Positions 18,911-39,853 of a stretch of 64,000 nucleotides of DNA are shown piece by piece; position 1 is the stretch's first letter; the number at the start of each line of letters is the position of its first letter. The position numbers were made by a program, and so were the translations under genes. The notes beneath the pieces were generated by a model that was not told the origin of the DNA, did not search any database, and saw nothing but the letters and a program-made list of their open reading frames with translations. Source of the stretch: Portulaca oleracea (lineage: Eukaryota; Streptophyta; Magnoliopsida; Caryophyllales; Portulacaceae). Location: NCBI GenBank assembly GCA_029582165.1, contig CM055877.1:5431855-5495854 (forward strand), in the 5' to 3' direction.

Positions 18911-18923
18911 TCCTCCTCTTCTT
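18911..18923 (-). promoter_or_regulatory. Polypurine tract of unit A
   Basis: Minus-strand AAGAAGAGGAGGA directly precedes the LTR start TGATCCGG. It also encodes the QEEED stretch of the pol frame, which runs through it. Confidence 0.8.
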
Positions 18924-21900
18924 GAGAAGGACTTGTCCTCAAGTCCGCATCATCCTCTTCACCCAAGTAAGGTGTAAGGTCTCCTACATTGAAGGTAGAG
19001 GAGATGCCGCCCATATCATCCGACAATTCAAGTTTGTAGGCATTCTCATTGATCTTGGCCACGTCTTTAAAGGGACCCTCGCTCCGCGGCATTAGCTTGT
19101 TTCTCCTCTTGGAAGGAAACCGTTCCTTTCGGAGGTGGAGCCACACTAGATCCCCGGGATTGAAGGAGTAAGCCTTGCGATTCTTGTTGAAACGAGCCTT
19201 GTAGAGCTCGTTTATCTTCTCAATACGCGCCCTCATCATTTGGTGGAGCTTCTTCATCTCGTTTGCCTTAACCTCCGCTTCAACACTCACACGTGCCTCA
19301 ATGGGGAGCGGGACGAGGTCAATGAGAGCAAGAGGGTTCATCCCATACAAGGCTTCAAATGGAGACACCCCAGTAGCATGGGATGGAGCCTTGTTCTAAG
19401 CAAACTCGGCCAACGGGAGTCTTAAGTCCCACTCTCGCACATTGGATTTAATGACGCTCCTCAACAGAGTTCCCAACACCCTATTAACCACCTCAGTTTG
19501 GCCATCGGTTTGGGGGTGGTAAGCGGTGCTAAAGAGTAGCTTCGTGCCCATAAGTTTCCACAAAACCCGCCAAAAATGTCCCACAAACTTTGAGTTGCGA
19601 TCTGAGACAATGCTTTAGGGGATGCCGTGAAGACGCACAACCTCCCGGAAATAGAGATGAGCAACATGATCGGCATCATCGGATTTGGTGCAAGGGATGA
19701 AGTGGGCCATCTTGGAGAACCGATCCACCACAACCAAAATGACATCCTTGCCTCGGGCAGTCCTTGGCAATGCTACAATGAAGTCCATACTTACATCCTC
19801 CCAAGGTGCTTGTGGGATGGGGAGGGGAGTATACAAGCCTTGATGGAATTGGCTCTTGGCTCGGTGACAAGCCGCACACCGGGACACCACATCATGCACA
19901 TCCCCGGCCATGCCGGGCCAATAAAAATGCTCTTTCAACATATCCATCGTCTTGTTCATGCCAAAGTGACCCGCCAAACCACCGCCATGCACTTCTTTCA
20001 CAAGAAATTTCCTCATAGGACTCTTGGGCACACATAATTTGTTTCCACGAAAAAGAAAGCCTTCTTGCACAACATAAGTGGATCTCGAAGGAGGGTTCTC
20101 TCCAAAATAAGGGGCGAAGTCCGGATCTTCTTTATAGTACTCTTGGAGGCGAGAAAACCCCAAGACTCTTGCCTCGATCAACGACAACAAGGCATGCCTT
20201 CTCAATAAAGCGTCGGCCACCACATTAGAGCTCCCCTTCTTGTGTTTTGCCACAAAGTTGAAGGATTGGAGGAACTCTACCCACTTTGCATGCCTTGCGC
20301 TTAATTTGTGTTGCCCGCTCAAGTACTTCAACGCCTCATGGTCCGAGTGTAGCACAAACTCCTTGGGTCTTAAATAGTGAGACCAATGATCAAGGGTGCG
20401 CACCATAGCATAGAACTCCTAGTCATAAGTACTATAGTTGAGCCGGGACCCATTGAGCTTTTCACTAAAGTAAGCGATAGGCCTCTTGTCTTGCATCAAT
20501 ACCGCCCCGATGCCAACGCCGCTAGCATCACATTCAACCTCAAAAAGTTGATCAAAGTTGGGGAGTGCCAATACCGGAGCGCTAGACAGCTTCTCCTTAA
20601 GGGCCTCAAAGGCCGCTTGAGCCTTGGGAGTCCAAGCGAAGACTCCCTTCTTCATGCATTCCGTGATGGGGGCCGTCAAGGTAGAGAAGTTCCGAATGAA
20701 GCGACGATAGAAAGAGGCGAGCCCATGAAAACTCTGCACTTCGGTGAGTGTAGTCGGTGATGGCCATGACCGAATCGCCTCTACCTTTGCTTCATCCATC
20801 GAAATGCCATCCTTGGAAACAACATACCCAAGGAAAGTGACCCTCGGGGTGAAAAACTCACACTTCTCCAATTTTCCATAAAGTTTTTGCTCCCGGAGCA
20901 CCTTGAACACTTCACAAAGATGGTGGACATGATCCGCCTCATTCTTGGAGTACACCAATATGTCATCAAAATACACAACCACAAATTTTCCAATGAAGGG
21001 TCGAAGTACTTCATTCATCAATCTCATAAAAGTACTCGGGGCATTAGAAAGCCCAAATGGCATCACGAGCCATTCATAGAGCCCTCCCTTGGTCTTGAAC
21101 GCCGTCTTCCATTCATCTCCTTCCCTCATCCGGATTTGGTGATACCCGCTCCGGAGATCGATCTTGGAGAACACCGAAGAGCCGTGGAGCTCATCTAAGA
21201 GATCGTCAAGCCGAGGGATGGGGTAGCGGTATTTGATGGTGATATTGTTTATGGCACGGCTATCGACACACATGCGGTATGTCCCATCTTTCTTAGGGAC
21301 GAGTAGGGCCGGTACGGAGCACGGACTTATGCTCTCACGTACATAACCACGGGCCACTAACTCATCCACTTGTCGTTGGAGCTCCTTCGTTTCCTCGGGA
21401 TTGCAACGGTATGCCGGCTTGTTGGGAAGAACCGAACCCGACACTAAGTCTATTTGGTGCTCAATTCCTCTAATCGGTGGAAGGCCGGGAGGAAGATCCT
21501 CGGGAAAGATGTCGGGGTATTGTGAGAGGAGGGGTTTAATTTGTGGAGCTATGGGTGTCACTTCCTCACCTTCATTACTTTCAAGCAAGAGCAAAGCGAG
21601 AACTTGCTTGCCCTTGCTCAAAGCTCGCTCGACCCGTGTTTCACTCACAAGGTGGTTTCTCTTCTCACTTCCCGCCCCGGGTGTTTTTTTGTGGAGTTGG
21701 GTAGGGGAAAAGGGTTCGAGCACAATTCGCTTCTTGTTCATAGGAAAAGAGTATGTGTTCTTCGTTCCATCATGAACCACCCCTCGATCATATTGCCATG
21801 GGCGGCCCAATAAAAGGTGGCAAGCATCCATTGGTACCACATCACATAAAACAACATCACGGTAAGTACCAATTGAAAAAGAAACATTAGCTTGTTGGGT

Positions 21901-23484
21901 TACCTTTATCTCGCCGGAATCATTCAACCACTTGAGAGCATAAGGACGAGGATGAGCAATCACCGGAAGATGGAGCTTCTCAATCATGGTGGTGGAAGCT
22001 ACGTTAGTGCAACTTCCGCTATCAACAATCATGTTACACACCCGATCTTGAACCGTGCATCGGGTTTGGAAGATCAACTCCCGTTGGGTTCTCTCTTGAG
22101 GCACCTCTTCAAGGTGAAGGGTTCGCCTCACAACTAAGAGATGTCCCGTATCCGGGCCGAAATTTACTTCATCTTCAACATCTTCAACCTAGATTTCTTC
22201 CTCTTCTTGCAACACATCCACTTCTTCTTGCACAACCTCTTCGATTTCCTCAATTTCTTGCATGGTCATAACCCTCTTGGTAGGGCAATCCGATTGAAAG
22301 TGGCCATAGCCATGGCACTTGAAGCATTTCCTCCCTTCGAGCCTCTTGGAGGGCTCTTTTGGAGCCGCCGGTGTTGGTAGGGGAGGCTTCGGGAATCTTG
22401 GAGGTAGAGGAGGGTTCTTGACCACGGATGAGTTGCCTTTGGCATAAGATCCACCCTTCTCAAAGGGTTTGACCACACCCCTCTTCTTCTTCCCTCTTTC
22501 CTCAATAAGGGTAGCAAGCTTGTAAAGATCGTCGATGGAGGTATATTCATAGAGTTTCACCTTCGATGCGATTTTGTAATCGAGGCCGTTGAGAAACCTC
22601 GCCATCATTTGCTCCGACGATTCATTCACATCACAACACATCTTAACCAACTCAAATTCCCGAATATAATCTCCAACACTTTTGGAGCCTTGCTTGAGGG
22701 AGAACAACTTGTTGTATAGATCTTGCTTGTAGTTGGTGGGTACAAACCTCTTCATCAAGTACTTCTTGAGTTTTGGCCACGTTTGGATTTTCGATTTTTG
22801 CTCCTTCGCTCTTTGTTTCTTCAAGTTCTCTAGCCAAAGGGAGGGATACTTAGTGAGTTGAAGTGTAGCCACCTTGTATTGCTTCCTCTCATCATATTCC
22901 TTGAGTTCAAATATTTTCTCCATAGCATGCACCCAATCAAGGAACCCATCGGGATCAGAACTACCATCAAAGGTAGGAGGATCTACCCGGAGGTCGCCCA
23001 AATCGTCTCGGGGCCTACGAATACGGGGACCCTCATGATAGGAAGCGTCATCCGATTCCTCACTCAACTCTTCCTCTTCAAGTTCACGACGACCGCGGGG
23101 TAGGATTGGAGGAGGAGGACCGGTGACTCGTGGAGGTCGTTGTTGATGAACTCGTGGGGAAGGAACACCACCACCCCTATTCGGACCGATGTTGAGTTCT
23201 TGATGTAGGGGCGGGAGGTCCACTTCCAACCTAAGGGGTCGTTGAGGAGCCCTTGCATCCTCCCAATAAGGTGGAAGTTGAAGATTGCCAAGAGTCCCTT
23301 CCAAGCTTTGCAATTGACGTTGGATTGCCCCTTGACTATTCACCATCAATTGTTGGGTACATTCGAATCGGTTTTGCATATCAATAACTTGTTGCTTAAG
23401 TTGAGCAATTGTAGGTTCGGGTGGGGAAATAGGATTGGAATTGGGAGAGTGGAGTTCGTCTCTTCGACTAGACGACTCGGCCAT
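18911..23484 (-). pseudogene. Gag-pol polyprotein of unit A, broken by five nonsense changes
   Basis: Reading on the minus strand, gag starts with MAESSSRRDELH at 23484. It has a Retrotrans_gag domain (DPDGFLDWVHAMEKIFEL) and a CCHC knuckle CFKCHGYGHFQSDC. Then come protease (VDSGS), reverse transcriptase with YFDDIL, RNase H (VECDASGVGIGAVL), integrase HHCC and DDE domains (HPQTDGQTE), and a GPF-type C-terminus. Against unit B, single substitutions create stops at 22189-22191 (CAG to TAG), 20419-20421 (AAG to TAG), 19615-19617 (CAA to TAA), 19396-19398 (TAC to TAG) and, in LTR1, 18730-18732. The frame is otherwise open, so decay is by point mutation rather than indels. The first stop lies at the gag/protease border, but B has glutamine there, so it need not be a programmed stop. 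Confidence 0.9.
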
Positions 23485-23965
23485 ATTGTGGAGCTAAAGG
23501 GTTATAACGGGCTAAGGAAGAGATGAACGGATGAGGTTTCGGGTTCTTTGTAGCTATGGATTTTATTGAGGTTTGAGAGGCTAATTTTGTGGGGGAAAAT
23601 GGGGTGTTACCGGCAAGAGGGGAAGCAAAACTAGCAACAAATCAAAGCATAAACAATACCAACACTTGCATAAGCTTCACCACAAATAGCCAAGCATTAA
23701 AACCCAACAATTCAACCTTCAACTTCATAAGCTTTCATGGCTACACATAAATTTCACCAAAAACCCCAAATTCTCAATGACCAACTTCGCCCAAATGATT
23801 CTCAATCACAACCAAACGTCAAACACAACAAGATATAACTACAATAAATCAATTTCAACTCCAAAGCACCAAGGTTGAACACTAGAACACACCCAACACA
23901 ACAACAACACAAATGGGTATTGAGGGGGTTCCCAAGTCGAACACAACAAGTGAGTTCTACACCTT

Positions 23966-23977
23966 GCTCTGATACCA
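23966..23977 (-). promoter_or_regulatory. Primer-binding site of unit A
   Basis: Minus-strand TGGTATCAGAGC, complementary to the 3' end of plant initiator Met-tRNA, is separated from LTR2 (23980) by two bases. Confidence 0.85.
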
Positions 23978-23979
23978 AA

Positions 23980-25147
23980 TGATCCATGAAGGATTGGGAA
24001 CTCAATAAATGTAATAAAAATCAACCCAAAGCACTACAAATACCAACAACATCCATGGCCACAAGTAGAACTCACAACACCTTCCAAACCCCAACAATGG
24101 AGAATGGAGTAGATCTAGATCTCAAATACACCAAATCAACAAAAGCTTGACAAGATATGGACAATCTATAAAGAATACTCACCAAGATTGAACTTAGAGT
24201 TCAAAAGATGCATAAAGGCTTAGCCACCAACACCCATTGAAACTCCATTGAAACCCTCACCAAGCTTGAAGAAGGTAGTCCACACCACAAGCTCTACAAG
24301 AACATTCAAGGATAAAGAGAGAGAGATTTGAGAGGATAGGGTTTGCAATACTCAAAGTTTTCATTCAAAGTTGTCTTCTCTTACAATTGGAGGAGTATTT
24401 GAAGAGGATAGGGGATAATGAGGATGCCCAATATTACAAAAGTGCCATTACAACTCATTAAATTAAAAGGGAAAACAAAATAAAAGGGATGAAAAAGGGA
24501 AAAAAGACGCAGCAGTGAACGGCACGATCGTGCCAAATGAGGGCACGATCGTGCCACTCAAAACAGCTCCAAAAAGTCTTAAGCTCGAAAACGGCACGAT
24601 CGTGTTGTCAAACGGCGCGATCGTGCCGTTGGCAGTTTTTTTTCTGCTGACTTCTAACGTCCATAACTTCTTCGTTTTAACTCCGATTTGGTCAAATAAT
24701 ATATCGATGGAAAGCTCTTGATGAGTACTATAAGATCACCAAATTTCATAATCATCGGAGTTATATAGAAGGAGTTGTAATCAAAATAGTGAAGATATAT
24801 CATTTCTTGTTGTCCAAATTTGCCCAAAAAATGACATTCTTCAACTTGTTCCCTCAAGACTCCTTTCTAGCCTTCTTCCATGCTCAATATCGAGCCCTTT
24901 AGCTGAAAATGGACCCGAGATCGAGCCGGGGAGTATTGGTGCCGATGTCGACCCGACCCGTGGTCTTAAAGTGGGCTCGGGGATGGCCCGAGACACCACG
25001 GAGGTTTGGGAAGGACCCTCCTTCAACACCCGGAAGAACTTGAGGATGATGTGGAGATCGATCGTCCATGACTTCACCCAATGCTCTTCCAATGGGGTTG
25101 GGAAACTCACATCAAGGTTGAGGAGAGCTCGGGAGGGGACCGGATCA
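23980..25147 (-). repeat. LTR2, the shared middle LTR of the array (1,168 bp)
   Basis: Serves as 5' LTR of unit A and 3' LTR of unit B. It has palindromes at 24522, 24543, 24594 and 24615 and lacks a 52-bp block (31+21) present in LTR1 and LTR3. The U3 hairpin module is at about 24662-24780. The pol frame of B ends inside it at 24841-24843, 304 bp from the LTR edge. Confidence 0.9.
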
Positions 25148-28100
25148 TCCTCCTCTTCTTGAGAAGGACTTGTCCTCAAGTCCGCATCATCCTCTTCACC
25201 CAAGTAAGGTGTAAGGTCTCCTACATTGAAGGTAGAGGAGATGCCGCCCATATCATCCGACAATTCAAGTTTGTAGGCATTCTCATTGATCTTGGCCACG
25301 ACTTTAAAGGGACCCTCGCTCCGCGGCATTAGCTTGTTTCTCCTCTTGGAAGGAAACCGTTCCTTTCGGAGGTGGAGCCACACTAGATCCTCGGGATTGA
25401 AGGAGTAAGCCTTGCGATTCTTGTTGAAACGAGCCTTGTAGAGCTCGTTTATCTTCTCAATACGCGCCCTCATCATTCGGTGGAGCTTCTTCATCTCGCT
25501 TGCCTTAACCTCCGCTTCAACACTCACACGTGCCTCAATGGGGAGCGGGACGAGGTCAATGAGAGCAAGAGGGTTCATCCCATATAAGGCTTCAAATGGA
25601 GACACCCCGGTAGCATGGGATGGAGCCTTGTTGTAAGCAAACTCGGCCAACGGGAGTCTCAAGTCCCACTCTCGCACATTGGATTTAATGACGCTCCTCA
25701 ACAGAGTTCCCAACACCCTATTAACCACCTCGGTTTGGCCATCGGTTTGGGGGTGGTAAGCGGTGCTAAAGAGTAGCTTCGTGCCCATAAGTTTCCACAA
25801 AACCCGCCAAAAATGTCCCACAAACTTCGAGTTGCGATCTGAGACAATGCTTTGGGGGATGCCGTGAAGACGCACAACCTCCCGGAAATAGAGATGAGCA
25901 ACATGATCGGCATCATCGGATTTGGTGCAAGGGATGAAGTGGGCCATCTTGGAGAACCGATCCACCACAACCAAAATGGCATCCTTGCCTCGGGCAGTCC
26001 TTGGCAATGCTACATTGAAGTCCATACTTACATCCTCCCAAGGTGCTTGTGGGATGGGGAGGGGAGTATACAAGCCTTGATGGAATTGGCTCTTGGCTCG
26101 GTGACAAGCCGCACACCGGGACACCACATCATGCACATCCCCGGCCATGCCGGGCCAATAAAAATGCTCTTTCAACATATCCATCGTCTTGTTCATGCCA
26201 AAGTGACCCACCAAACCACCGCCATGCACTTCTTTCACAAGAAATTTCCTCATAGGACTCTTGGGCACACATAATTTGTTTCCACGAAAAAGAAAGCCTT
26301 CTTGCGCAACATAAGTGGATCTCGAAGGAGGGTTCTCTCCAAAATAAGGGGCGAAGTCCGGATCTTCTTTATAGTACTCTTGGAGGCAAGAAAACCCCAA
26401 GACTCTTGCCTCGATCAACGACAACAAGGCATGCCTTCTCAATAAAGCGTCGGCCACCACATTAGAGCTCCCCTTCTTGTGTTTTGCCACAAAGTTGAAG
26501 GATTGGAGGAACTCTACCCACTTTGCATGCCTTGCGCTTAATTTGTGTTGCCCGCTCAAGTACTTCAACGCCTCATGGTCCGAGTGTAGCACAAACTCCT
26601 TGGGTCTTAAATAGTGAGACCAATGATCAAGGGTGCGCACCATAGCATAGAACTCCTTGTCATAAGTACTATAGTTGAGCCGGGACCCATTGAGCTTTTC
26701 ACTAAAGTAAGCGATAGGCCTCTTGTCTTGCATCAATACCGCCCCGATGCCAACGTCGCTAGCATCACATTCAACCTCAAAAAGTTGATCAAAGTTGGGG
26801 AGTGCCAATACCGGAGCACTAGACAGCTTCTCCTTAAGGGCCTCAAAGGCCGCTTGAGCCTTGGGAGTCCAAGCGAAGACTCCCTTCTTCATGCATTCCG
26901 TGATGGGGGCCGTCAAGGTGGAGAAGTTCCGAATGAAGCGACGATAGAAAGAGGCGAGCCCATGAAAACTCTGCACTTCGGTGAGTGTAGTCGGTGATGG
27001 CCATGACCGAATCGCCTCTACCTTTGCTTCATCCATCGAAATGCCCTCCTTGGAAACAACATACCCAAGGAAAGTGACCCTCGGGGTGAAAAACTCACAC
27101 TTCTCCAATTTTCCATAAAGTTTTTGCTCCCGGAGCACCTTGAACACTTCACAAAGATGGTGGACATGATCCGCCTCATTCTTGGAGTACACCAATATGT
27201 CATCAAAATACACAACCACAAATTTTCCAATGAAGGGTCGAAGTACTTCATTCATCAATCTCATAAAAGTACTCGGGGCATTAGAAAGCCCAAATGGCAT
27301 CACGAGCCATTCATAGAGCCCTCCCTTGGTCTTGAACGCCGTCTTCCATTCATCTCCTTCCTCATCCGGATTTGGTGATACCCGCCCGAGATCGATCTTG
27401 AGAACACCAAGAGCCGTGGAGCTCATCTAAGAGATCGCTGCCGAGGGATGGGGTAGCGGTATTTGATGGTGATATTGTTTATGGCACGGCTATCGACACA
27501 CATGCGGTATGTCCCATCTTTCTTAGGGACGAGTAGGGCCGGTACGGAGCACGGACTTATGCTCTCACGTACATAACCACGGGCCACTAACTCATCCACT
27601 TGTCGTTGGAGCTCCTTCGTTTCCTCGGGATTGCAACGGTATGCCGGCTTGTTGGGAAGAACCGAACCCGGCACTAAGTCTATTTGGTGCTCAATTCCTC
27701 TAATCGGTGGAAGGCCGGGAGGAAGATCCTCGGGAAAGATGTCGGGGTAATGGGAGAGGAGGGGTTTAATTTGTTGAGCTATGGGTGTCACTTCCTCACC
27801 TTCATTACTTTCAAGCAAGAGCAAAGCGAGAACTTGCTTGCCCTTGCTCAAAGCTCGCTCGACCCGTGTTTCACTCACAAGGTGGTTTAGCTTCTCACTT
27901 CCTGCCCCGGGTGTTTTTTTGTGGAGTTGGGTAGGGGAAAAGGGTTCGAGCACAATTCGCTTCTTGTTCATAAGAAAAGAGTATGTGTTCTTCGTTCCAT
28001 CATGAACCACCTCTCGATCATATTGCCATGGGCGGCCCAATAAAAGGTGGCAAGCATCCATTGGTACCACATCACATAAAACAACATCACGGTAAGTACC

Positions 28101-29600
28101 AATTGAAAAAGAAACATTAGCTTGTTGGGTTACCTTTATCTCGCCGGAATCATTCAACCACTTGAGAGCATAAGGACGAGGATGGGCAATCACCGGAAGA
28201 TGGAGCTTCTCAATCATGGTGGTGGAAGCTACGTTAGTGCAACTTCTGCTATCAACAATCATGTTACACACCCGATCTTGAACCGTGCATCGGGTTTGGA
28301 AGATCAACTCCCGTTGGGTTCTCTCTTGAGGCACCTCTTCAAGGTGAAGGCTTCGCCTCACAACTAAGAGATGTCCCGTATCCGGGCCGAAATTTACTTC
28401 ATCTTCAACATCTTCAACCTGGATTTCTTCCTCTTCTTGCAACACATCCACTTCTTCTTGCACAGCCTCTTCGATTTCCTCAATTTCTTGCATGGTCATA
28501 ACCCTCTTGGTAGGGCAATCCGATTGAAAGTGGCCATAGCCATGGCACTTGAAGCATTTCCTCCCTTCGAGCCTCTTGGAGGGCTCTTTTGGAGCCGCCG
28601 GTGTTGGTAGGGGAGGCTTCGAGAATCTTGGAGGTAGAGGAGGGTTCTTGACCACGGATGAGTTTCCTTTGGCATAAGATCCACCCTTCTCAAAGGGTTT
28701 GACCACACCCCTCTTCTTCTTCCCTTTTTCCTCAATAAGGGTAGCAAGCTTGTAGAGATCGTCGATGGAGGCATATTCATAGAGTTTCACCTTCGATGCG
28801 ATTTTGTAATCGAGGCCGTTGAGAAACCTCGCCATCATTTGCTCCGGCGATTCATTCACATCACAACGCATCTTAACCAACTCAAATTCCCGAATATAAT
28901 CTCCAACACTTTTGGAGCCTTGCTTGAGGGAGAACAACTTGTTGTATAGATCTTGCTTGTAGTTGGTGGGTACAAACCTCTTCATCAAGTACTTCTTGAG
29001 TTTTGGCCACGTTTGGATTTTCGATTTTTGCTCCTTCGCTCTTTGTTTCTTCAAGTTCTCTAGCCAAAGGGAGGCATACTTAGTGAGTTGAAGTGTAGCC
29101 ACCTTGTATTGCTTCCTCTCATCATATTCCTTGAGTTCAAATATTTTCTCCATAGCATGCACCCAATCAAGGAACCCATCGGGATCAGAACTACCATCAA
29201 AGGTAGGAGGATCTACCCGGAGGTCGCCCAAATCGTCTCGGGGCCTACGAATACGGGGACCCTCATGATAGGAAGCGTCATCCGATTCCTCACTCAACTC
29301 TTCCTCTTCAAGTTCACGACGACCGCGGGGTAGGATTGGAGGAGGAGGACCGGTGACTCGTGGAGGTCCACTTCCAACCTAAGGGGTCGTTGAGGAGCCC
29401 TTGCATCCTCCCTATAAGGTGGAAGTTGAAGATTGCCAAGAGTCCATTCCAAGCTTTGCAATTGACGTTGGATTGCCCCTTGACTATTCACCATCAATTG
29501 TTGGGTACATCGAATCGGTTTTGCATATCAATAACTTGTTGGATAAGTTGAGCAATTGTAGGTTTGGGTGGGGAAATAGGATTGGAATTGGGAGAGTGGA
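24841..29600 (-). pseudogene. Gag-pol polyprotein of unit B, damaged
   Basis: The long frames 29297-27423 and 27426-24841 together cover gag, protease, RT, RNase H, integrase and the C-terminal tail, without the five stops of unit A. Three kinds of damage are visible. An 82-bp deletion between GGAGGTC repeats near 29369, plus a 1-bp loss near 29509, shift the gag N-terminus. The protease triplet reads DSR instead of DSG (VDSRSCTNV). A cluster of 1-2 bp losses between 27360 and 27445 shifts the RT frame. Gag and protease are in one frame here, so the family normally makes a single Gag-Pol. The frame continues 304 bp into LTR2. Confidence 0.9.
25148..25160 (-). promoter_or_regulatory. Polypurine tract of unit B
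   Basis: Minus-strand AAGAAGAGGAGGA abuts LTR2, same as in unit A. Confidence 0.8.
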
Positions 29601-30115
29601 GTTTGTCTCTTCGACTATACGACTCGGCCATATTGTGGAGCTAAAGGGTTATAACGGGCTAAGGAAGAGATGAACGGATGAGGTTTAGGGTTCTTTGTAG
29701 TTATGGATTTTATTGAGGTTTGAGAGGCTAATTTTGTGGGGGAAAATGGGGTGTTACCGGCAAGAGGGGAAGCAAAACTAGCAACAAATCAAAGCATAAA
29801 TAATACCAACAACACTTGCATAAGCTTCACCACAAATAGCCAAGCATTAAAACCCAACAATTCAACCTTCAACTTCATAAGCTTTCATGGCTACCCATAA
29901 ATTTCACCAAAAACCCCAAATTCTCAATGACCAATTTCGCCCAAATGATTCTCAATCACAACCAAACGTCAAACACAACAAGATATAACTACAATAAATC
30001 AATTTCAACTCCAAAGATCCAAGGTTGAACACTAGAACACACCCAACACAACAACAACACAAATGGGTATTGAGGGGGTTCCCAAGTCAAACACAACAAG
30101 TGAGTTCTACACCTT

Positions 30116-30127
30116 GCTCTGATACCA
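30116..30127 (-). promoter_or_regulatory. Primer-binding site of unit B
   Basis: Minus-strand TGGTATCAGAGC, two bases from LTR3. Confidence 0.85.
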
Positions 30128-30671
30128 AATGATCCATGAAGGATTGGGAATTCAATAAATGTAATAAAAATCAACCCAAAGCACTACAAATACCAACAAC
30201 ATCCATGGCCACAAGTAGAACCACAACACCTTCCAAACCCCAACAATGGAGAATGGAGTAGATCTAGATCTCAAATACACCAAATCAACAAAAGCTTGAC
30301 AAGATATGGACAATCTATAAAGAATACTCACCAAGATTGAACTTAGAGTTCAAAAGATGCATAAAGGCTTAGCCACCAACACCCATTGAAACTCCATTGA
30401 AACCCTCACCAAGCTTGAAGAAGGTAGTCCACACCACAAGCTCTACAAGAACATTCAAGGATAAAGAGAGAGAGATTTGAGAGGATAGGGTTTGCAATAC
30501 TCAAAGTTTTCATTCAAAGTTGTCTTCTCTTACAATTGGAGGAGTATTTGAAGAGGATGGGGGATAATGAGGATGCCCAATATTACAAAAGTGCCATTAC
30601 AACTCATTAAATTAAAAGGGAAAACAAAATAAAAGGGATGAAAAAGGGAAAAAAGACGCAGCAGTGAAACG

Positions 30672-30828
30672 GCACGATCGTGCCAAATGAGGGCACGATC
30701 GTGCCACTCAAAACAGCTCCAAAAAGTCTTAAGCTCGAAAACGGCACGATCGTGTTGTCAAACGGCACGATCGTGCGGTACCTTCTGGAAGAATGGCACG
30801 ATCGTGCAACAAAACGGCGCGATCGTGC
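30672..30828 (-). promoter_or_regulatory. Array of six 12-bp palindromes in LTR3
   Basis: GCACGATCGTGC (a perfect palindrome; two copies have one change) starts at 30672, 30693, 30744, 30765, 30796 and 30817. Spacings are 21, 51, 21, 31, 21 bp. On the minus (transcribed) strand the array lies between the U3 hairpin module and the presumed core promoter. Confidence 0.85.
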
Positions 30829-30862
30829 CGTTGGCAGTTTTTTTCTGCTGACTTCTAACGTC

Positions 30863-30980
30863 CATAACTTCTTCGTTTTAACTCCGATTTGGTCAAATAA
30901 TATATCGATGGAAAGCTCTTGATGAGTACTATAAGATCACCAAATTTCATAATCATCGGAGTTATATAGAAGGAGTTGTA
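30863..30980 (-). promoter_or_regulatory. Conserved U3 hairpin module (copy in LTR3)
   Basis: Arms CATAACTTCTTC...AACTCCGA at 30863-30887 and TCGGAGTT...GAAGGAGTT at 30956-30977 are inverted complements around a loop containing TATCGATGGAAAGCTC. The same arrangement recurs in LTRs of D, E, H and the solo LTR at 55091. It lies just after the pol stop codon in the transcript sense. Confidence 0.8.
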
Positions 30981-31348
30981 ATCAAAATAGTGAAGATATA
31001 TCATTTCTTGTTGTCCAAATTTGCCCAAAAAATGACATTCTTCAACTTGTTCCCTCAAGACTCCTTTCTAGCCTTCTTCCATGCTCAATATCGAGCCCTT
31101 TAGCTGAAAATGGACCCGAGATCGAGCCGGGGAGTATTGGTGCCGATGTCGACCCGACCCGTGGTCTTAAAGTGGGCTCGGGGATGGCCCGAGACACCAC
31201 GGAGGTTTGGGAAGGACCCTCCTTGAACACCCGGAAGAACTTGAGGATGATGTGGAGATCGATCGTCCATGACTTCACCCAATGCTCTTCCAATGGGGTT
31301 GGGAAACTCACATCAAGGTTGAGGAGAGCTCGGGAGGGGACCGGATCA

Positions 31349-31353
31349 AAGAG
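31349..31353. repeat. Target-site duplication AAGAG, right copy (A/B array)
   Basis: Matches 17694-17698. Confidence 0.85.
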
Positions 31354-31881
31354 AAAGAATAAGTTGATGCCAAAGGGCGAGGGACCATTAAAAGTATTGG
31401 CCAAGATCAACCAGAACCCCCATAAGCTTGAGTTGTCAGATGACATGGGTGACATCTCCTCCACTTTCAATGTAGGAGATCTTACACCCTACTTTGAGGC
31501 GGAGGACGATGTGGATTTGAGGATAAGTGCTTCTCAAGAAGATCGAGAAGGATGACTCGATCCCCTACCTAGACCTCATCCTGGAGGAGGTCGAGTTTAT
31601 GATCCCCTTCGAGGAATATTGGGTCAAAGCCTGGACCCAGATCGAACATCCAACACTTATTGAGGTATGTTTGGGCCTTTGACAACGACCCTCCCTCGCT
31701 CGCCATGGCCCCTTGGGTTACCCACGAGACTCCGTGAGGAATGCAGGTCAGGTTGACATCGACTTGAATAATCCTCGGCCCAAGCTCGGGCCTATTTGCA
31801 GCTAGAAGGTTCAGATTTGAGCATGGAAGAAAGTAGGAAGAAGAAGGGAAGATAAGTAAAGGGATCAGCTGCATGGGTCAT

Positions 31882-31886
31882 GGTTG
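31882..31886. repeat. Target-site duplication GGTTG, left copy (element D)
   Basis: The matching copy is at 39854-39858. Confidence 0.85.
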
Positions 31887-32336
31887 TGGAGCGTGGCGCG
31901 ATGGGAGAGATTGTAGACTTAGCTTGAGTTGTTGTTGTAGAAGAGATGAGAGAAATCCATAAGCAGTAGAATAAGGGGAGAAAGATGAACATCTCAATCA
32001 CCCATGATTGAACTTCTCAACGATAGCCTTGAACTTGAATAATAACAAGAATAATAACCAAAATCAACCAATTTCAATAACCTTGAACACCAAAGGGATT
32101 GGATATGACCTTGGATAAAGGAGATTCCACCACCAAAGCCTAACACCCCACCATGACCATCATAAAGGAAGAATCCACCAAATGATCAATAAAGGAATGA
32201 CTAGAAACACCACCATTAATCAATGGATAAAGTAATCTAGATTTTGAGAGAAAACACCACCAAAGCCTAAACCCTAACCAATGCATAAGCATATTCATAA
32301 TCATCAAAAGCTGCCTGGAAAAAAAGTCCTAACAAG

Positions 32337-32345
32337 CTATTTATA
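32337..32345 (-). promoter_or_regulatory. TATA box of the element D LTR
   Basis: TATAAATAG on the minus strand. The first palindrome lies 66 bp upstream. Element E (36267-36274) and the solo LTR at 55091-56164 (55437-55444) have TATAAATA in the corresponding place. Confidence 0.65.
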
Positions 32346-32410
32346 CTAAACCAGAAATTAAGTAAAAACAGAGCAAAAATAAAGAAACTTCGCGTTCTCC
32401 CAGAAGGTTG

Positions 32411-32631
32411 GCTCGGGCGAGCCAGGGGGTTGCTCGGGCGAGCCAGGGGGTTGCTCGGGCGAGCAGGCCCACTGAGGGGTTGACCACGTACGCGACACAT
32501 CTGGCAGGCGCTAGGACAAATCTGGCAAGAGCTTGGCTCGGGCGAGCCAGGGAGCGGCTCGGGCGAGCAGGTCCACTGAGAGGTTGACCATGAGCGTGGC
32601 AAAGTCTGGCAGAATGGTGGCTCGGGCGAGC
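32411..32631 (-). promoter_or_regulatory. Palindrome array in the element D LTR
   Basis: GCTCGGGCGAGC starts at 32411, 32432, 32453, 32536, 32557 and 32620, with spacings 21, 21, 83, 21, 63. The copies are identical and the spacing is close to multiples of 21. The motif is a different sequence from the A/B palindrome but sits at the same place in the LTR. Confidence 0.85.
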
Positions 32632-32671
32632 CATGCTTCTGGGCAGTTTTTCCCTGCCGACTTCCAACGCG

Positions 32672-32788
32672 CATAACTTCTTCATCCGAACTCCGTTTTA
32701 GGCCTGTAAGATATCATTGGAAAGCACTCAGTGTGTCTATAAGCTCCCAAAATTTGAGACCTATCGAAGTTATATTGAAGGAGTTATG
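32672..32788 (-). promoter_or_regulatory. Conserved U3 hairpin module (copy in element D)
   Basis: Arm 1 CATAACTTCTTC...AACTCCG at 32672-32695; arm 2 TCGAAGTT...GAAGGAGTTATG at 32763-32788. It starts about 50 bp from the last palindrome, as in A/B. Confidence 0.8.
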
Positions 32789-32857
32789 GCCCAAAGCGTG
32801 AAGGCGCGCGTATTTCCAACCTATGATCGCCTTCCCCCTTGCAAGATATTAACTTGG

Positions 32858-35146
32858 TTACTTCCGAGACTTGATACCACCACGCCCTTCATTTTCGGGA
32901 TGACCCAATCCAGTCCCAAGGCCTCCGAGGTCGTTGACAAGTCCCGAGCCTCTCCTTACTCCAACAAGGATGGCTCGCCGAGGCCACGATAGTGTGATGC
33001 TCACCACCCCGCCTTTTGTAAAGGTGTAACGATTCCTAAAAACGAGTGGGTGAGCGGTTTTAGTCCGGTGATGAGGGGTCGGGATTTCATCGATCTTATC
33101 TTTAACCGCAATCCCGGCTATGAAAGCTTGGCACCGCACCCGACACTGAACCCGATACGCTTCATACTCCCCCTCTTGAAAAAGAGTTGCCCTCAACTCT
33201 TGGGGGTTAAAACCGAAGCACTCTTCATCAATCGTCCCCATGAAGCTCCGAACTTCCCGAACGCTTCGAACAAACATGCTTGACAACCCACAATCTTCAA
33301 ATCCCACAATGTACCCATCATCCATATGCAAGAATGTAGAAGGAGACTTGTTTTGTGGAGGTGAGGGGTTAAGGGGCGGAAGAAGGAATCTATATGGTGC
33401 TTGGGAACTCTCAATCTCACTAAGCTCGCTACAAGGCAAAGACAAAGCAGGAGGGAGCTCGTCCTCGCCAAGAGCACACTCATCCCGTGTTTCGCTCATC
33501 ATGAGAAGGTTCCTCAACTCACTACCCACCCAAGTTTTATTTTTATGTAGGGTTAAGGGATTCATGCATTCAAGTCCAAGTAATTGATCTTCGCTCAACA
33601 CACAATGCCACGAACATTGCACACCAAATTTCCAATAACACTCATTCAACGACAAATCCTCAAATAACCAATGTCGACCAAACAATATGTATGACTCGTT
33701 CAAAAAGTTCATGACACAACGACCAATATGCGAGCAATATTCATCGAAGGACGACACAATTGAAGAGCTCAAAAACTTAGGTTGAACTAGAACCAAGGCA
33801 TCTTCAATTCCAAATTCGCCACTAAACACCAAACGGACACCAAGATTCTTAGTATGCCACTCAAAACATTGGGAATTTTCAACCGGGGACTTCACATGCT
33901 CATCATGCAACTTATCTCGCCAACAAACTTCATCAAACAACCAATGTCTCCCAAAGATCATGCACGACTCACCCAAAGACTCTACACCACATCGTACATC
34001 TTTCAAGCATGATTCAATAAATTTCAAAGGAGAGTCTTCGGTTACCTTGTTCTTCCCATGGAGAATAATTTGGGTGCCCGTGGGTGGAAGGAAATAGGAG
34101 TCACCACCATTATTGTTTAATCCCTTGGCTTGCGGCAATGATAACCGCAAATGAACTTCTTCTTGGGCCTCTTCAACACGGATAAGAGGAAGGGCAAGAT
34201 CGATGTTCTCAACCACCTCTTGGCTTGGAACTTCAACATTAGCTTCGGAAGCCTCACAAGATTCAACGGAAGCTCCTTCGCCGGGAAAGGAATCGACCTT
34301 TGCTTGCTTAACCTCTTCTACCATGTCACTTGTATGCTCTTCCACACCAAAGGATTCTTCAATCCAAGTTTCAATCATAGCCATTGTCGGACATTGCAAA
34401 GCATCATGTCCCACACGTCTACATTTGACACATTTTTGGGACGTAAAGGCCGTTAGTAGGGAACAGTGGAATGGATTTTCCCGGGAGGAATCCTCTCTTC
34501 TTCTTTGCCCATCAAGGGATGAAATGAGTTCATGGTCTCGCTTGTAAGTACTAGGCAAGAATCGTCGATTCATTAATCGCTTTAGCTTTGTCCATGAGGT
34601 GACTTTTGCTCGACCCTCCTTAGCTCTTTGTGCCTTGACATTCTCAAACCAAAAGGATGCAACCTTGGTGAGTTTCAATCTCGCGATCTTGAAGACCTGT
34701 TCATCACTATAATCCTCGGCTTCAAAAATCCTATCCAAGATTTTGACCCATTCAAGATAATCTTCGGGGTCGGTGTTGCCAATGAATTCTGGAATTTTGA
34801 TCTTGGTATCATAGAATTCATCCCGTGGGGGCTTCTCAACCGCTTCCCGTCGACGATGGCGTCGAAACAAGCCTCTCTCATCGTCACTCGACTCGTAGGA
34901 GGGAGGAGGATGGATAGGACTTCGTGCGGGTCTACGACATTCATCTCGGGGTTGTCTTTGATACTCTTGGGCTAGGTTGTTCACTTTGACCTTAAGGTTC
35001 TCAAGAGTTTGCTCGATGGTGGGGAACCGGTTCTCGTAGGCGGATAGTCGGTCCTCGTAGGCGGAGATTCGATTCTCGACAGTTTGAACTCGAGGACTTT
35101 GGCGTTGGCTTGATTCCTTCCGATTGGAATTATTTTCACCATCCAT
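32858..35146 (-). CDS. Gag-like protein of element D, 762 residues, reading into the 3' LTR
   Basis: The start chosen is MDGENNSNRKESSQ at 35146; the frame is open further upstream to 35317 but that part is leader. A coiled-coil-like stretch with repeats of the type RxSAYEDRLSAYENRF comes first. Next is a Retrotrans_gag domain (YLEWVKILDRIFEAEDY, KLTKVASFWFENVKAQRAKE, NRRFLPSTYKRD), then the CCHC knuckle CVKCRRVGHDALQC. The long C-terminal part has no family I recognise. It contains two copies of a block with the core FGRHWLF (about 33939-33965 and 33668-33694). The frame then passes through the polypurine tract and 306 bp of the LTR, stopping at 32858. No enzyme domains are present. An intact frame of this length suggests recent activity. 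Confidence 0.8.
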   Translation of the reverse strand: MDGENNSNRKESSQRQSPRVQTVENRISAYEDRLSAYENRFPTIEQTLENLKVKVNNLAQEYQRQPRDECRRPARSPIHPPPSYESSDDERGLFRRHRRREAVEKPPRDEFYDTKIKIPEFIGNTDPEDYLEWVKILDRIFEAEDYSDEQVFKIARLKLTKVASFWFENVKAQRAKEGRAKVTSWTKLKRLMNRRFLPSTYKRDHELISSLDGQRRREDSSRENPFHCSLLTAFTSQKCVKCRRVGHDALQCPTMAMIETWIEESFGVEEHTSDMVEEVKQAKVDSFPGEGASVESCEASEANVEVPSQEVVENIDLALPLIRVEEAQEEVHLRLSLPQAKGLNNNGGDSYFLPPTGTQIILHGKNKVTEDSPLKFIESCLKDVRCGVESLGESCMIFGRHWLFDEVCWRDKLHDEHVKSPVENSQCFEWHTKNLGVRLVFSGEFGIEDALVLVQPKFLSSSIVSSFDEYCSHIGRCVMNFLNESYILFGRHWLFEDLSLNECYWKFGVQCSWHCVLSEDQLLGLECMNPLTLHKNKTWVGSELRNLLMMSETRDECALGEDELPPALSLPCSELSEIESSQAPYRFLLPPLNPSPPQNKSPSTFLHMDDGYIVGFEDCGLSSMFVRSVREVRSFMGTIDEECFGFNPQELRATLFQEGEYEAYRVQCRVRCQAFIAGIAVKDKIDEIPTPHHRTKTAHPLVFRNRYTFTKGGVVSITLSWPRRAILVGVRRGSGLVNDLGGLGTGLGHPENEGRGGIKSRK

Positions 35147-35483
35147 ATCGAAGGAAGGGTGAGAGATGGTATGTGTTCGGGAATATTTTGTGGAGTTTGG
35201 GGGGTTTTTTTGTGGTTGGCTTGTGTTTGGATAAGGGTTCTTTGTATTTTTTTCACTTAGACATTTCATCGAACACCTTGCGGGCACAAATTCTCCAACT
35301 CTTCCTCCAAGCTCCAATATGCATCAAAATCAACAAACACAATAGCAATAACAATTTCTCCAACACACTTGGAATCACAAGGGTTGGGGAACACCAATAT
35401 TTCAATCAAATCCAACAAAAGACAACTCTACTAGTAATGAACAATGGAGGAATGAACAAAACTCAAGCTAATGCAAACCTTGA

Positions 35484-35495
35484 GCTCTGATACCA
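35484..35495 (-). promoter_or_regulatory. Primer-binding site of element D
   Basis: Minus-strand TGGTATCAGAGC, two bases from the 5' LTR at 35498. Identical to that of A/B. Confidence 0.85.
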
Positions 35496-35497
35496 AA

Positions 35498-35554
35498 TGG
35501 AGCGTGGCGCGATGGGAGAGATTGTAGACTTAGCTTGAGTTGTTGTTGTAGAAG
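35498..35554 (-). repeat. 5' LTR of element D, first part
   Basis: 57 bp matching the start of the 3' LTR (TGGAGCGTGGCGCGATGGG), then interrupted by element E at 35555. The LTR resumes at 38655. Confidence 0.9.
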
Positions 35555-36021
35555 TGTTCGGTTGTAATTTTTGTGGTTTTATAAGTAAGGATTGTCGATC
35601 TCAGGGATGGGTGTTAGGCTTGATTAAGGTAAATCGGTTTGTGTAAAGGGGTTTTTCTCAATGCGGAAAGCAATAAATTATGTAAATGAAGCAATAAACT
35701 AATCTAGACAAGATAATAATAAAGAAAGCAATTAAAAGCATGAAATCAAATAAAGCAATTAAAGCAAGGAATGGAAATCTAGAATGAACAATGAAATTAG
35801 AGACAAGAAATTATACCTTTGATGACTAATCTTCAATAAACCTTCAATCTACACTTGAATTTCCCCCGAACAAACAAGAAATTGTGGTTTGGATTACCAA
35901 GAATCCCCCAAATTCTCACTAGTAAGTAGAATTGGAGTTCCTTGACCCTCCTCCCCACTAAAAATGGAGTTGATTGTGGCTGACACTATAAAGCTTGGAA
36001 AACAAGTCAACAATGGAAATT

Positions 36022-36056
36022 AGAGAGAGAGAGAGAGAGATAGAGAAGAGAGAGAA
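36022..36056. repeat. (AG)n microsatellite in the element E LTR
   Basis: AG repeats; the second LTR copy has the same run near 37744-37775. Confidence 0.85.
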
Positions 36057-36344
36057 AGCTTGTAAAACTTCAATGGAAACTTGCTTGAATTGAGAAAGCT
36101 TGAGAAAGTTTGAATACAAATGCTAGAAATCAATGAAAGCTTGAAGAACAATTGAAAACTTGAAGAACAATTAAGAGAGATTAAAGCAAATAAAGGAAAG
36201 CAATTAAATCTAATTCTACTCCTAAACTACCTAGGCTAATTGATAATTTGGATTAATACAAGTGGGTATTTATAGAAGAAGGAAAAATACAACCCAAAAC
36301 CCTAGAAATAATTCTCGTGCAGCGACGATTTCTCCATGACAGTG

Positions 36345-36449
36345 GCTCGGGCGAGCCACCCTCTGGCTCGGGCGAGCCAGCGTTCTGGCTGGTGTTTTTG
36401 TTGCTCCAGAAGCCTGGCTCGGGCGAGCTAGCAGATGGCTCGGGCGAGC
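36345..36449 (-). promoter_or_regulatory. Palindrome array in the element E LTR
   Basis: GCTCGGGCGAGC-type palindromes start at 36345, 36366, 36417 and 36438: spacings 21, 51, 21. This is the same series as in LTR2 of A/B, although the palindrome sequence differs. The second LTR copy (38061 onward) is eroded, GCTCAGGCGAGC, with small losses. Confidence 0.85.
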
Positions 36450-38654
36450 AAGCGTTCTGGGTAGTTTTTCCCTGCCGACTTCAAACGCGCATAACTTCTT
36501 CATCCGAACTCTGTTTTAGGCCCGTAAGATATCGATGGAAAGCTCTCGGTGTGTACTTTAAGCTCCCAAAATTTCAAACCTATCGGAGTTGTAACGAAGG
36601 AGTTATGACCCAAAGGGTGAAGGCACACGTATTTCAAACCTTTGAGTTTGTACCGTTCCCCTGTTTTGCGCCAATCTTGATATGAAATTTCCGACTTCGG
36701 TTTCGCCTCGGCTCTCGGCTCGGGTTGACTTGGTTTGACTCGGATCTCGGCTCGGGTTGACTTGGTTTGACTCGGGAAATAGCTCGGGATTCCCTAAAAA
36801 CCTTCAATTAAGCCCAAACTTCTTCTAACTCCTGATTTTCCTACAAAACACCAAATCATTATATCTATAAATAGGGGTTAAAACAAGCAAATATACCCTA
36901 TAAAAGAGAAGAAATTCGGCTCAAACAGTAGAACACCACTCAACACAAGGGTTTGCTACTTGAGCAAACTAAAAGAAGAAAAGGACTAAAAGAAAAACTA
37001 AAAACCTAACTCACTTTGCGGGAATCGCGGATGCACTTAGCACATGCATCAAGCCCTTTAAACCCCGTGGCCGGGTGGGCGAGTAGGTCTCGTGAGGGTT
37101 TATAGCAACTATACCCATAAAGCCTCGAGAAAAGAAAAAGGGAAAGAAAAGAAGTGAAAATCGAAAAGCGAAACAAAACAAAAGCAAAGAAAAAAATTCC
37201 GTCCCCAATCATGCACCTAGTTCCCATCCGCCTCAACAATCAATTGGAAGAAGCAAGTATAAACAAATTAAGACACGAAGGTTGGAAAGCGCGATCTTTG
37301 AGATTTTGAACAAAACACTTCCTGATGAGCAAAACACCTCGTGCATATGTGCAAGTGGGCTCTAGTCGGTCCTTCCTATCCTAAACCAGACAATCAGAGT
37401 TGTTCTCATGCTCAAGCTCGGGATTATCTATCCTACTTCACTCTTGGTTTTTCTTTTAACCTCTCTTTTCTTTCTTTTTCTTACTTTGCTCTCTTTTCTT
37501 TCTTTTTCTTACTTTGCTCTTTTCTTTTTTTACTTTTCTCTTTCTTACCATTATTTTGCTCAACTCTTTTTTCCTTTTTCTTGCTTCGCTCTTTTCTTTC
37601 TTTTTCAAAACCTACGCTCTTTTATTTCCACTCAATCCGTTTTGTGTCTTTTAGAGCGTTTGTGTCGGGTTTTGCGGGATTTTAAGAACCGGCCTTCGCA
37701 ATGACACTATAAAGCTTGGAAAACTAGTCAACAATGGAAATTAGAGAGAGAGAGAGAGAGAGAAGAGAGAGAAAGCTTGTAAAACTTCAATGGAAACTTG
37801 CTTGAATTGAGAAAGCTTGAGAAAGTTTGAATACAAATGCTAGAAATCAATGAAAGCTTGAAGAACAATTGAAAACTTGAAGAACAATTAAGAGAGATTA
37901 AAGCAAATAAAGGAAAGCAATTAAATCTAATTCTACTCCTAAACTACCTAGGCTAATTGATAATTTGGATTAATACAAGTGGGTATTTATAGAAGAAGGA
38001 AAAATACAACCCAAAACCCTAGAAATAATTCTCAAGACGCGTGATTTCTCCATGACAGTGGCTCAGGCGAGCCACCCTCGGCTCAGGCGAGCCAGCGTTA
38101 CGGCTGGTGTTTTGTTGCTCGAGCTGGCTCGGGCGAGCGGCAGATGGCTCGAGCAAGCGGCGTTAGGTAGTTTTTCCCTACCGACTTCAAACGCGCATAA
38201 CTTCTTCATCCGAACTCTGTTTTAGGCCCGTAAGATATCGATGGAAAGCTCTCAGTGTGTACTTTAAGCTCCCAAAATTTCAGACCTATCGAAGTTGTAA
38301 CGAAGGAGTTATGACCCAAAGGGTGAAGGCACACGTATTTCAAACCTTTGAGTTTGTACCGTTCCCCTGTTTTGCGCCAATCTTGATATGGAATTTCCGA
38401 CTTCAGTTTCGCCTCGACTCTCGGCTCGGGTTGACTTGGTTTGACTCGGATCTCAGCTCGGGTTGACTTGGTTTGACTCTGGAAATAGCTCGGGATTCCC
38501 TAAAAACCTTCAATTAAGCCCAAACTTCTTCTAACTCCTTATTTTCCTACAAAACACCAAATCATTATATCTAATATATAAATAGGGGTTAAAACAAGCA
38601 AATATACCCTATAAAAGAGAAGAAATTCGGCTCGAAACGAGGCCGAACAAGAAG

Positions 38655-39853
38655 AGATGAGAGAAATCCATAAGCAATAGAATAAGGGGAGAAAGATGAA
38701 CATCTCAATCACCCATGCTTGAACTTCTCAACAATAGCCTTGAACTTGAATAATAACAAGAATAATAACCAAAATCAACCAATTTTAATAACCTTGAACA
38801 CCAAAGGGATTGGATATGACCTTGGATAAAGGAGATTCCACCACCAAAGCCTAACACCCCACCATGACCATCATAAAGGAAGAATCCACCAAATGATCAA
38901 TAAAGGAATGACTAGAAACACCACCATTAATCAATGGATAAAGTAATCTAGATTTTGAGAGAAAACTTAGGGAAACCCTAACCAATGCATAAGCATATTC
39001 ATAATCATCAAAAGTGCTGGAAAAAAGTCCTAACAAGCTATTTATACTAAACCAGAAATTAAGTAAAAACAGAGCAAAAATAAATAAACTTAGCTATCTC
39101 CCAGAAGGTTGGCTCGGCGAGCAGGTTGCTCAGGCGAGCGAGGGTTGCTCGGCGGCGAGCCACGAGGGTTGACCACGTACGCGACACATCTGGCAGGCGC
39201 TAGGACAAATCTGGCAGGAGCTTGGCTCGGGCGAGCCAGGGAGCGGCTCGGGCGAGCAGGTCCACTGAGAGGTTGACCATGAGCGCGGCAAAGTCTGGCA
39301 GAATGGTGGCTCGGGCGAGCCATGCTTCTGGGCAGTTTTTCCCTGCCGACTTCCAACGCGCATAACTTCTTCATCCGAACTCCTTTTAGGCCCGTAAGAT
39401 ATCGTTGGAAAGCACTCAGTGTGTATTATAAGCTCCCAAAATTTGAGACCTATCGAAGTTATATTGAAGGAGTTATGGCCCAAAGCGTGAAGGCGCGCGT
39501 ATTTCCAACCTATGATCGCCTTCCCCCTTGCAAGATATTAACTTGGTTACTTCCGAGACTTGATACCACCACGCCCTTCATTTCCGGGATGACCCAATCC
39601 AGTCCCAAGGCCTCCGAGGTCGTTGACAAGTCCCGAGCCTCTCCTTACTCCAACAAGGATGGCTCGCCGAGGCCACGATAGTGTGATGCTCACCACCCCG
39701 CCTTTTGTAAAGGTGTAACGATTCCTAAAAACGAGTGGGTGAGCGGTTTTAGTCCGGTGATGATGGGTCGGGATTTCATCGATCTTATCTTTAACCGCAA
39801 TCCCGACTATGAAAGCTTGGCACCGAACCCGACACTGAACCCGATACGGTTCA
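38655..39853 (-). repeat. 5' LTR of element D, second part
   Basis: Resumes after element E with AGATGAGAGAAATCC and matches 31917-33164. Its palindrome block around 39112-39170 is eroded by several small deletions compared with the 3' LTR. It ends CGGTTCA before GGTTG. Confidence 0.9.

Follow-up and report, generated by a model that had tools for sequence, protein, structure and literature searches.

The 64,000-nucleotide stretch of the Portulaca oleracea genome considered here (contig C10, 5.43-5.50 Mb; the window in what follows) carries several retrotransposons, A/B, D and E among them, whose long terminal repeats (LTRs) hold arrays of short palindromes. It raises the question of how the spacing of such sites can be kept from one family to the next while the palindrome itself changes, as an initial annotation had claimed for two motifs. 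Searching the 1.13-Gb genome, we find that the arrays are real and wider than first noted, that their actual spacing is 21-22 bp rather than strictly 21 bp, and that they share one site frame, N4-CG-NN-CG-N4, a 14-bp dyad of two 6-bp half-sites around a 2-bp centre. The half-sites differ symmetrically (GGCTCG, GGCACG, GTCACG, GTCGCG, GACTCG, GTAGCG). Judging from these patterns, we regard it as moderately probable that the arrays are paired sites for a dimeric DNA-binding protein, most likely host-encoded, with pairs 21 bp apart binding two dimers.

Spacing and placement of the dyads

Within the window, every palindrome coordinate of the initial annotation is correct to the base, and its description of the motifs is right in part. 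The A motif, GGCACGATCGTGCC, is a perfect palindrome, but the exact word GCACGATCGTGC stands at 8/15 A-family positions and the other 7/15 are one base off (18255 reads GCATG..; 18306, 24594 and 30744 end ..GTGT; 18379, 24615 and 30817 read GCGCG..). The D/E motif, GCTCGGGCGAGC, is exact at all positions in D (6/6) and E (4/4) but is not a perfect palindrome: its arms, GGCTCG and CGAGCC, enclose an unpaired GG, so that GGCTCGGGCGAGCC is an interrupted dyad. With at most two mismatches allowed, the window holds 42 framed 14-mers (32 within the arrays of A, D and E); 20 shuffles gave a mean of 4.65 and a maximum of 13. Module-bearing LTRs at 53.1, 55.7 and 57.5 kb, absent from the initial annotation, carry other dyads.

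The module in question is a segment of about 150 bp in the U3 (unique 3') region, with inverted copies of approximately CATAACTYCTTC-n5-AACTCCG at its two ends, as seen in alignment; its pattern matches 2,665 places in the genome and its reversed control none. We also observed that the module is conserved among LTRs whose remaining parts mostly fail to align. Our LTR sample comprised 110 sequences of 260 bp, namely 10 window copies and 100 of the 2,665 module places (L057-L156, all on contig C1), which fall by shared 8-mers into 32 clusters; these are not proven families, and one of them, with 54 members, is the E-like group. A blind dyad search that used symmetry only (at least 5/6 pairs around a 2-bp centre) found a 21-bp step in 75/110 LTRs and a 22-bp step in 20/110. 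With one copy per cluster, the 21-bp step occurs in 15/32 and the 22-bp step in 8/32, while 200 shuffles gave a mean of 0.16 and a maximum of 2 for 21 bp. When the CG-NN-CG core was required in addition, with one CpG allowed to have decayed, at least two sites were present in 23/32 clusters, and 19 of these 23 have a 21-bp step; steps of 22 bp occur in 9 clusters and of 20 bp in 7.

A whole-genome search for pairs of identical-word dyads with 0-30 bp between them, made without the module as bait, counted five words and returned 522 places for GTCACG, 22 for GGCACG, 620 for GACTCG, 425 for GTCGCG and 976 for GTAGCG, with 0 for each reversed control. Scrambled palindromes gave 5 places for GCTACG (18- and 39-bp steps) and 0 for GCTGCG. 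The step was tallied over the first 50 places listed, in contig order, for each word, and over all 22 for GGCACG: it is 21 bp in 12/50 for GTCACG, 18/22 for GGCACG, 42/50 for GACTCG, 39/50 for GTCGCG and 34/50 for GTAGCG. For the five counted words 21 bp is thus the main step, or level with 22. The choice of GTAGCG went back to a single perfect site (L088) plus a handful of mixed or decayed sites, and this word also shows steps of 39, 43 and 44 bp. An 18-bp tandem repeat, GCTACGACCGTAGCGAAC, lies at G000:C24:10386122-10386189, and the words of a GTAGCG family with 39-bp steps read as related to it.

Distinct spacers were obtained by merging those within one mismatch (longer ones within one in eight; for GTCACG, within two or one in eight). 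Among the first four word types, 21 bp accounts for 50/83 of them, where steps spread evenly over 14-44 would give 2.7, and the other steps are mostly 20, 22-23, 29-33 and 42-44.

Eight pair places were fetched for their unusual centres or spacers, a choice from which no rate follows, and seven of them are multi-site arrays with no module in 551 bp, their framed steps being 20, 21, 22, 25, 31, 32 and some longer ones; arrays of this kind are therefore not confined to the module-bearing group. Two loci, L158 and L164, have large GTCACG/GTCGCG arrays, again without the module, and downstream sequence alike by eye, pointing to a further repeat family with sites of this type. At the eighth pair place (L161, 266-287) two GACTCGGCCGAGTC dyads stand 21 bp apart in an apparent protein-coding gene, which is probably a coding coincidence.

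As to placement, the initial annotation held that the array always lies between the U3 module and a TATA box. This is so in D and E, where a TATA motif lies beyond the array at 32340 and 36269, respectively, and in 72/110 LTRs (12/32 clusters), with a median gap to the TATA of 69 bp, but no TATA motif was seen for the A cluster. None of the arrays in the 110 LTRs was found to contain a TATA motif. Since A/B, D and E are all on the minus strand, the order in the sense direction is module, array, promoter.

Symmetric half-site change, descent and a proposed binding protein

The words recognised by their perfect arms are spread over many clusters: GTCGCG in 9, GGCTCG in 6, GTCACG in 5, GACTCG in 4, TGCTCG in 3, and GGCACG, GTAGCG, CGCTCG, AGCTCG and CGATCG in one each, a second GGCACG cluster (L091/L099) having one end unpaired. 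We reject the view that the phenomenon is limited to two motifs; that spacing is kept while the palindrome changes is supported well beyond the window, by the 32 clusters and by the whole-genome pairs.

The two arms of a site tend to match. Among 147 distinct core-bearing 14-mers the outer pairs match in 306/588 cases, compared with a mean of 201 and a maximum of 243 when arms are swapped; outside the arrays in the window they match in 36/116. Two-sided changes are common, pair 2/13 being mostly G-C or T-A and pair 4/11 T-A, A-T or G-C. Mosaic arrays, 13 in all and including three module-less loci, have matching halves within a site in 29/44 cases versus 20.9 when right halves are redealt within the array (p 0.0004). 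Mixed sites make up 20/54 distinct cluster-site types, and in 15 of these 20 the two half-sites differ by a single substitution (GTCACG with GTCGCG, GGCTCG with GACTCG, GTCGCG with GTAGCG), which looks like change of one half at a time.

We expect that the dyad arrays act as upstream promoter elements, in many LTRs about 70 bp before the TATA motif. Each dyad would be bound by one two-fold symmetric (dimeric) DNA-binding protein, and dyads 21 bp apart, that is, two helical turns and on the same face of the DNA, would hold two neighbouring dimers, whose binding would probably be cooperative; the bound dimers may then recruit or license transcription of the element. Among related families, the recognised word may have changed by single half-site substitutions by way of mixed sites while the spacing was kept. 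A pair of dimers on one DNA face would explain the symmetry, the two-turn spacing, the position before the TATA where it is seen and the lower variation of the sites. Because A/B, D and E show only gag- or pol-like open reading frames (ORFs) or lack ORFs altogether, and because arrays of a similar kind also occur at places with no module in sight, the protein would most likely be encoded by the host, or supplied in trans by another element. Paired sites for a dimeric protein, which the initial annotation had suggested, are thus still a putative account, if the best-fitting one.

Variation among copies of one family bears on this account. In an alignment of 76 of 82 E-family copies (six failed the exact pattern), which mixes copies found by similarity to the first E LTR (E1) with copies from the pattern list, substitutions average 0.062 for the sites, compared with 0.289 and 0.105 for the 7-bp and 37-bp spacers, respectively, and CpGs are retained at 0.946 in sites and 0.846 elsewhere nearby. 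Across clusters, the 7-bp spacers of the last pair are 0.356 identical, against 0.246 when shuffled, and the palindromes 0.716 (15 clusters); a profile anchored on the last site had 9/20 clusters usable. The initial annotation had named homology of the spacers as a possible source of the 21-51-21 series shared by A and E. In register these spacers match at 5/44 positions, below the 9.2 expected, and spacer homology therefore does not explain the series; we reject it, although the 37-bp spacers gave a single weak match when gaps were allowed (p 0.03).

These figures also bear on a neutral account, in which a single ancestral array is simply inherited, unequal exchange and slippage between its repeats cause gains and losses of whole units, so that the spacing persists unaided, and template-switch correction, a mechanism that acts on quasi-palindromes, restores symmetry once one side has changed, so that no protein is needed. 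It explains much: the layout is inherited in 15 clusters, the A-family losses are exactly unit-sized, mixed sites are common at 20/54, and recent tandem units exist, both at L071 and as repeated spacers among the GACTCG and GTAGCG pairs. It fits less well with 7-bp spacers that are altered almost beyond recognition and still 7 bp long, with the prevalence of 21-22 bp across clusters when indels do occur in the arrays of individual copies, or with E copies whose sites vary less than their spacers and whose site CpGs, like the CG-NN-CG core in general, persist. Framed steps of 20, 21, 22, 31 and 32 bp recur at module-less loci too, though those loci were chosen for a close pair. On this evidence we think neutral maintenance unlikely.

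A third possibility concerns RNA. U3 is transcribed at the 3' end of the element, and its palindromes might form hairpins that serve packaging or feed Dicer, whose products of 21-22 nt match the step and count in favour of the idea, as does the fact that the arrays fold as RNA. The palindromes of Sirevirus LTRs have been called small-RNA hotspots of rapid evolution in the passages cited (PMC5311732, PMC10760457, citing Bousios 2016). The folding is no stronger in the sense strand, with z-scores over 14 clusters of -0.2 to -3.0 for sense and -0.2 to -3.6 for antisense; among one-mispair sites, 17 would be G-U in sense RNA versus 37 A-C; the conserved G6/C9 pair would fall in the tetraloop; and Rfam gave no match at the gathering threshold. 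The lack of a sense-strand preference weakens the RNA account, and sense-RNA hairpins as the main cause are not supported by the mispair counts and fold scores. We consider it quite improbable.

CpG-rich dyads could instead serve chiefly for epigenetic insulation, as a CpG island or as the target of an element-encoded anti-silencing protein like VANC, the words turning over by escape from RNA-directed DNA methylation. VANC targets do form tandem repeats that differ between related elements (PMC5735166 and PMC10398659, in the parts cited), and the retention of site CpGs in E copies points the same way. That difference in CpG retention is of modest size, and the search pattern itself fixes some CpGs of the module; A/B, D and E have no ORF of at least 200 aa that lacks a gag- or pol-like match, and the term 'palindrom' has no match in the searched text of the VANC paper PMC5735166. 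This makes insulation very improbable in our estimate.

Several observations weigh against paired dimer sites at a fixed step. The last pair stands at a constant place before the module in 15 clusters, which means that the layout is inherited and that the clusters are not independent; the independence of A and E is likewise not supported, as the last site is equally placed relative to the shared module. The spacing itself is not uniform. Among the first 50 of 522 GTCACG places, a step of 22 bp occurs in 13 and of 30 bp in 11, compared with 12 for 21 bp. Of 38 E-family copies, 14 retain the full 21-51-21 series, and 21 bp accounts for 47/87 steps. The second E LTR (20, 46, 20) and the scrambled second D LTR depart from 21 bp, and the claim that indels between LTRs remove whole units and keep the phase holds for A, with losses of 21 and 52 bp, but not for D and E. 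For the arrays of D and E, misaligned indels inflate the computed divergence of 8 %. No framed pair was found in 9/32 clusters, among them L073 and family F, whose dyads are built differently and, in F, are longer and 49 bp apart. The longer steps show modest helical phasing (p ~7e-5 by cluster, 0.12 over distinct step values), and the 42-44 steps of the first four word types contain, by eye, a decayed third site in the middle, which leaves the 29-33 group as independent support for it. No TATA motif was found within 290 bp of the A array. Finally, in the 76 E copies the module, some of whose columns are fixed by the pattern, is less variable (0.026) than the sites.

A broader form of the dimer-pair account would make the arrays a promoter address code for many, partly unrelated families, in which cooperative dimer pairs read dyads two helical turns apart and the word changes stepwise, by single half-sites and via mixed dimers, alongside a diversifying set of binding proteins, each family being activated by its own version of the factor. 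We find this extension rather doubtful.

Should paired dimer sites be correct, they would indicate a previously unknown type of factor in control of many retrotransposon families of one genome, and the array would be a noncoding one whose geometry and symmetry hold as its letters change, a situation seldom seen with such clarity. The thousands of copies in a single genome would then form a natural series of half-site changes, mixed intermediates included, and a long-standing question, the reason for palindromic arrays in LTR promoters, would become directly testable with the words listed here.

Carrier elements and neighbouring features

The arrays and their carriers are listed in the table.

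Table. Features of the window (positions in the 64,000-nucleotide stretch; array entries give 14-mer starts and the steps between them in bp).
Feature	Position	Strand	Details
Dyad array, LTR1 of A/B	18254..18391	-	18254, 18305, 18326, 18357, 18378; steps 51, 21, 31, 21
Dyad array, LTR2 of A/B	24521..24627	-	24521, 24542, 24593, 24614; steps 21, 51, 21
Dyad array, LTR3 of A/B	30671..30829	-	30671, 30692, 30743, 30764, 30795, 30816; steps 21, 51, 21, 31, 21
Dyad array, 3' LTR of D	32410..32632	-	32410, 32431, 32452, 32535, 32556, 32619; steps 21, 21, 83, 21, 63
Dyad array, 5' LTR of D	39111..39321	-	three units scrambled by indels (~39111-39165), then 39224, 39245, 39308; steps 21, 63
Dyad array, E LTR	36344..36450	-	36344, 36365, 36416, 36437; steps 21, 51, 21
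Dyad array, other E LTR	38060..38159	-	38060, 38080, 38126, 38146; steps 20, 46, 20; missing from the initial annotation
Decayed array, further LTR (G)	55519..55680	-	GTCGCGGGCGGCAC at 55519, GTCACGGGCGCTAC at 55539, GTCGCGGGTGCGAC at 55667
Family F, two longer dyads	53015..53083	-	ATGAGGCGC-n5-GCGCCTCAT and AGGCAC-n5-GTGCCT; centres 49 bp apart; not in the 14-bp frame
Second F LTR, equivalent region	57421..57489	-	decayed GAGGCGC..TGCCTC and CAGGCGC-n5-GCGCCTG
U3 module	30829..30995	-	other copies from 18395, 24631, 32642, 36460, 38166, 39331, 53096, 55690, 57486
Element A/B	17689..31348	-	three LTRs in tandem, with two internal regions; single AAGAG target-site duplication; polypurine tract
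gag ORF of A/B	27423..29297	-	
pol ORF of A/B	24841..27426	-	reverse transcriptase, RNase H, integrase (Ty3/gypsy order); extends into LTR
Element D	31887..39853	-	target-site duplication GGTTG; 5' LTR split by E; single ORF, weak gag match
Element E	35555..38649	-	nested in the 5' LTR of D; target-site duplication AGAAG; no ORF of at least 200 aa inside

Element A/B is a Ty3/gypsy-type LTR retrotransposon by its pol order, its TG..CA LTRs (ends TGATCC..GGATCA), a primer-binding site adjoining the LTR, the polypurine tract AAGAAGAGGAGGA and a 5-bp target-site duplication present on both sides. The primer-binding site is presumably of Met type. Its pol ORF contains RVT_1 (23-123), RNase H (186-310), integrase H2C2 (390-446) and rve (466-559) domains. 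Membership in the chromoviruses, which would have a chromodomain after the integrase, was considered as well: an SH3_Tf2-1 domain is present, and the four ORFs that were scanned gave no chromodomain match at E <= 1. Autonomous coding capacity is lacking in D, with its one weak gag-like ORF, and in E.

Three LTRs in tandem within one target-site duplication are as expected from unequal recombination, and the pol reading frame of A/B continues about 300 bp into the LTR (24841-25147). Beside LTR3, about 500 bp (31346-31843) match the A element inverted (18623-19113) at 70 %; they may be an older relative that received the A/B insertion. Just past the right end of D, TCACGATCGTGA at 39956 and GGTCACGGTCGTGACC at 40059 look like the remnant of another array.

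Outside plants, a pattern scan of a prokaryote collection returned four loci, the one relevant being plant-like DNA in a contig of Candidatus Burkholderia humilis (L002), of which 2583-2685 matches part of the U3 module (nhmmer E 4e-13) with no array visible by eye. In viral contigs, one scan with module patterns had no match, another gave 20 loci that were not module-like by BLAST, and a search with the pol protein found no match.

Comparison with known systems

The initial annotation knew of no description of such arrays, but the LTRs of Sireviruses were shown in 2010 to carry palindromic repeated motifs (RMs) upstream of the TATA, with a word that differs between families (PMC2829016). As described there, the RM boxes resemble the present arrays in being many-copy short palindromes in the upper half of the LTR that form CpG islands, and in having been proposed as regulatory sites without a known factor. 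They differ in their Ty1/copia backbone, the pol order of A/B being of Ty3 type, and in their core, which is CGG-CCG in 12/13 elements (PMC2829016), whereas it is CG-NN-CG here. RMs reach up to 32 copies and also occur upstream of env, and a term search of that article returned no statement on RM spacing (PMC2829016). Multi-copy palindromes upstream of a TATA, as in Sireviruses, are present in the 72/110 LTRs given above and were not seen for the A cluster.

VANDAL elements are DNA transposons, and with their VANC proteins they are the nearest analogue for arrays whose motifs change from one related element to the next. Their short noncoding motif arrays likewise differ in sequence between related elements and evolve by tandem repeat formation (PMC5735166, PMC10398659, parts cited). 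The VANC binder is encoded by the element and recognises non-palindromic motifs of 8-9 nt (PMC5735166, PMC10398659), and no such gene was seen in the ORFs of A/B, D and E. In the ORFs scanned, no domain other than gag or pol rose above the cut-off, the genome not having been searched for a VANC-like binder.

The U3 regions of Tnt1 and Tto1, both Ty1/copia elements, hold repeated, partly symmetric activator boxes in few copies, and we know of no fixed two-turn pairs across families in them. ONSEN has one known factor and word and is not known to carry an array of changing palindromes. Like the elements proposed here, it is a plant retrotransposon that uses a host response for its activation, in its case that to heat stress (PMC3907296, part cited). 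The symmetry of Tnt1 box I is mentioned in PMC2829016. Motif strings searched in the literature returned papers unrelated by title, and a literature search that left subscription papers mostly outside it found no report of a constant step of two turns or of comparable arrays in LTRs of Ty3 type. Set beside these systems, the Ty3-type carrier, the fixed two-turn spacing and the symmetric, stepwise change of the word seem to be new.

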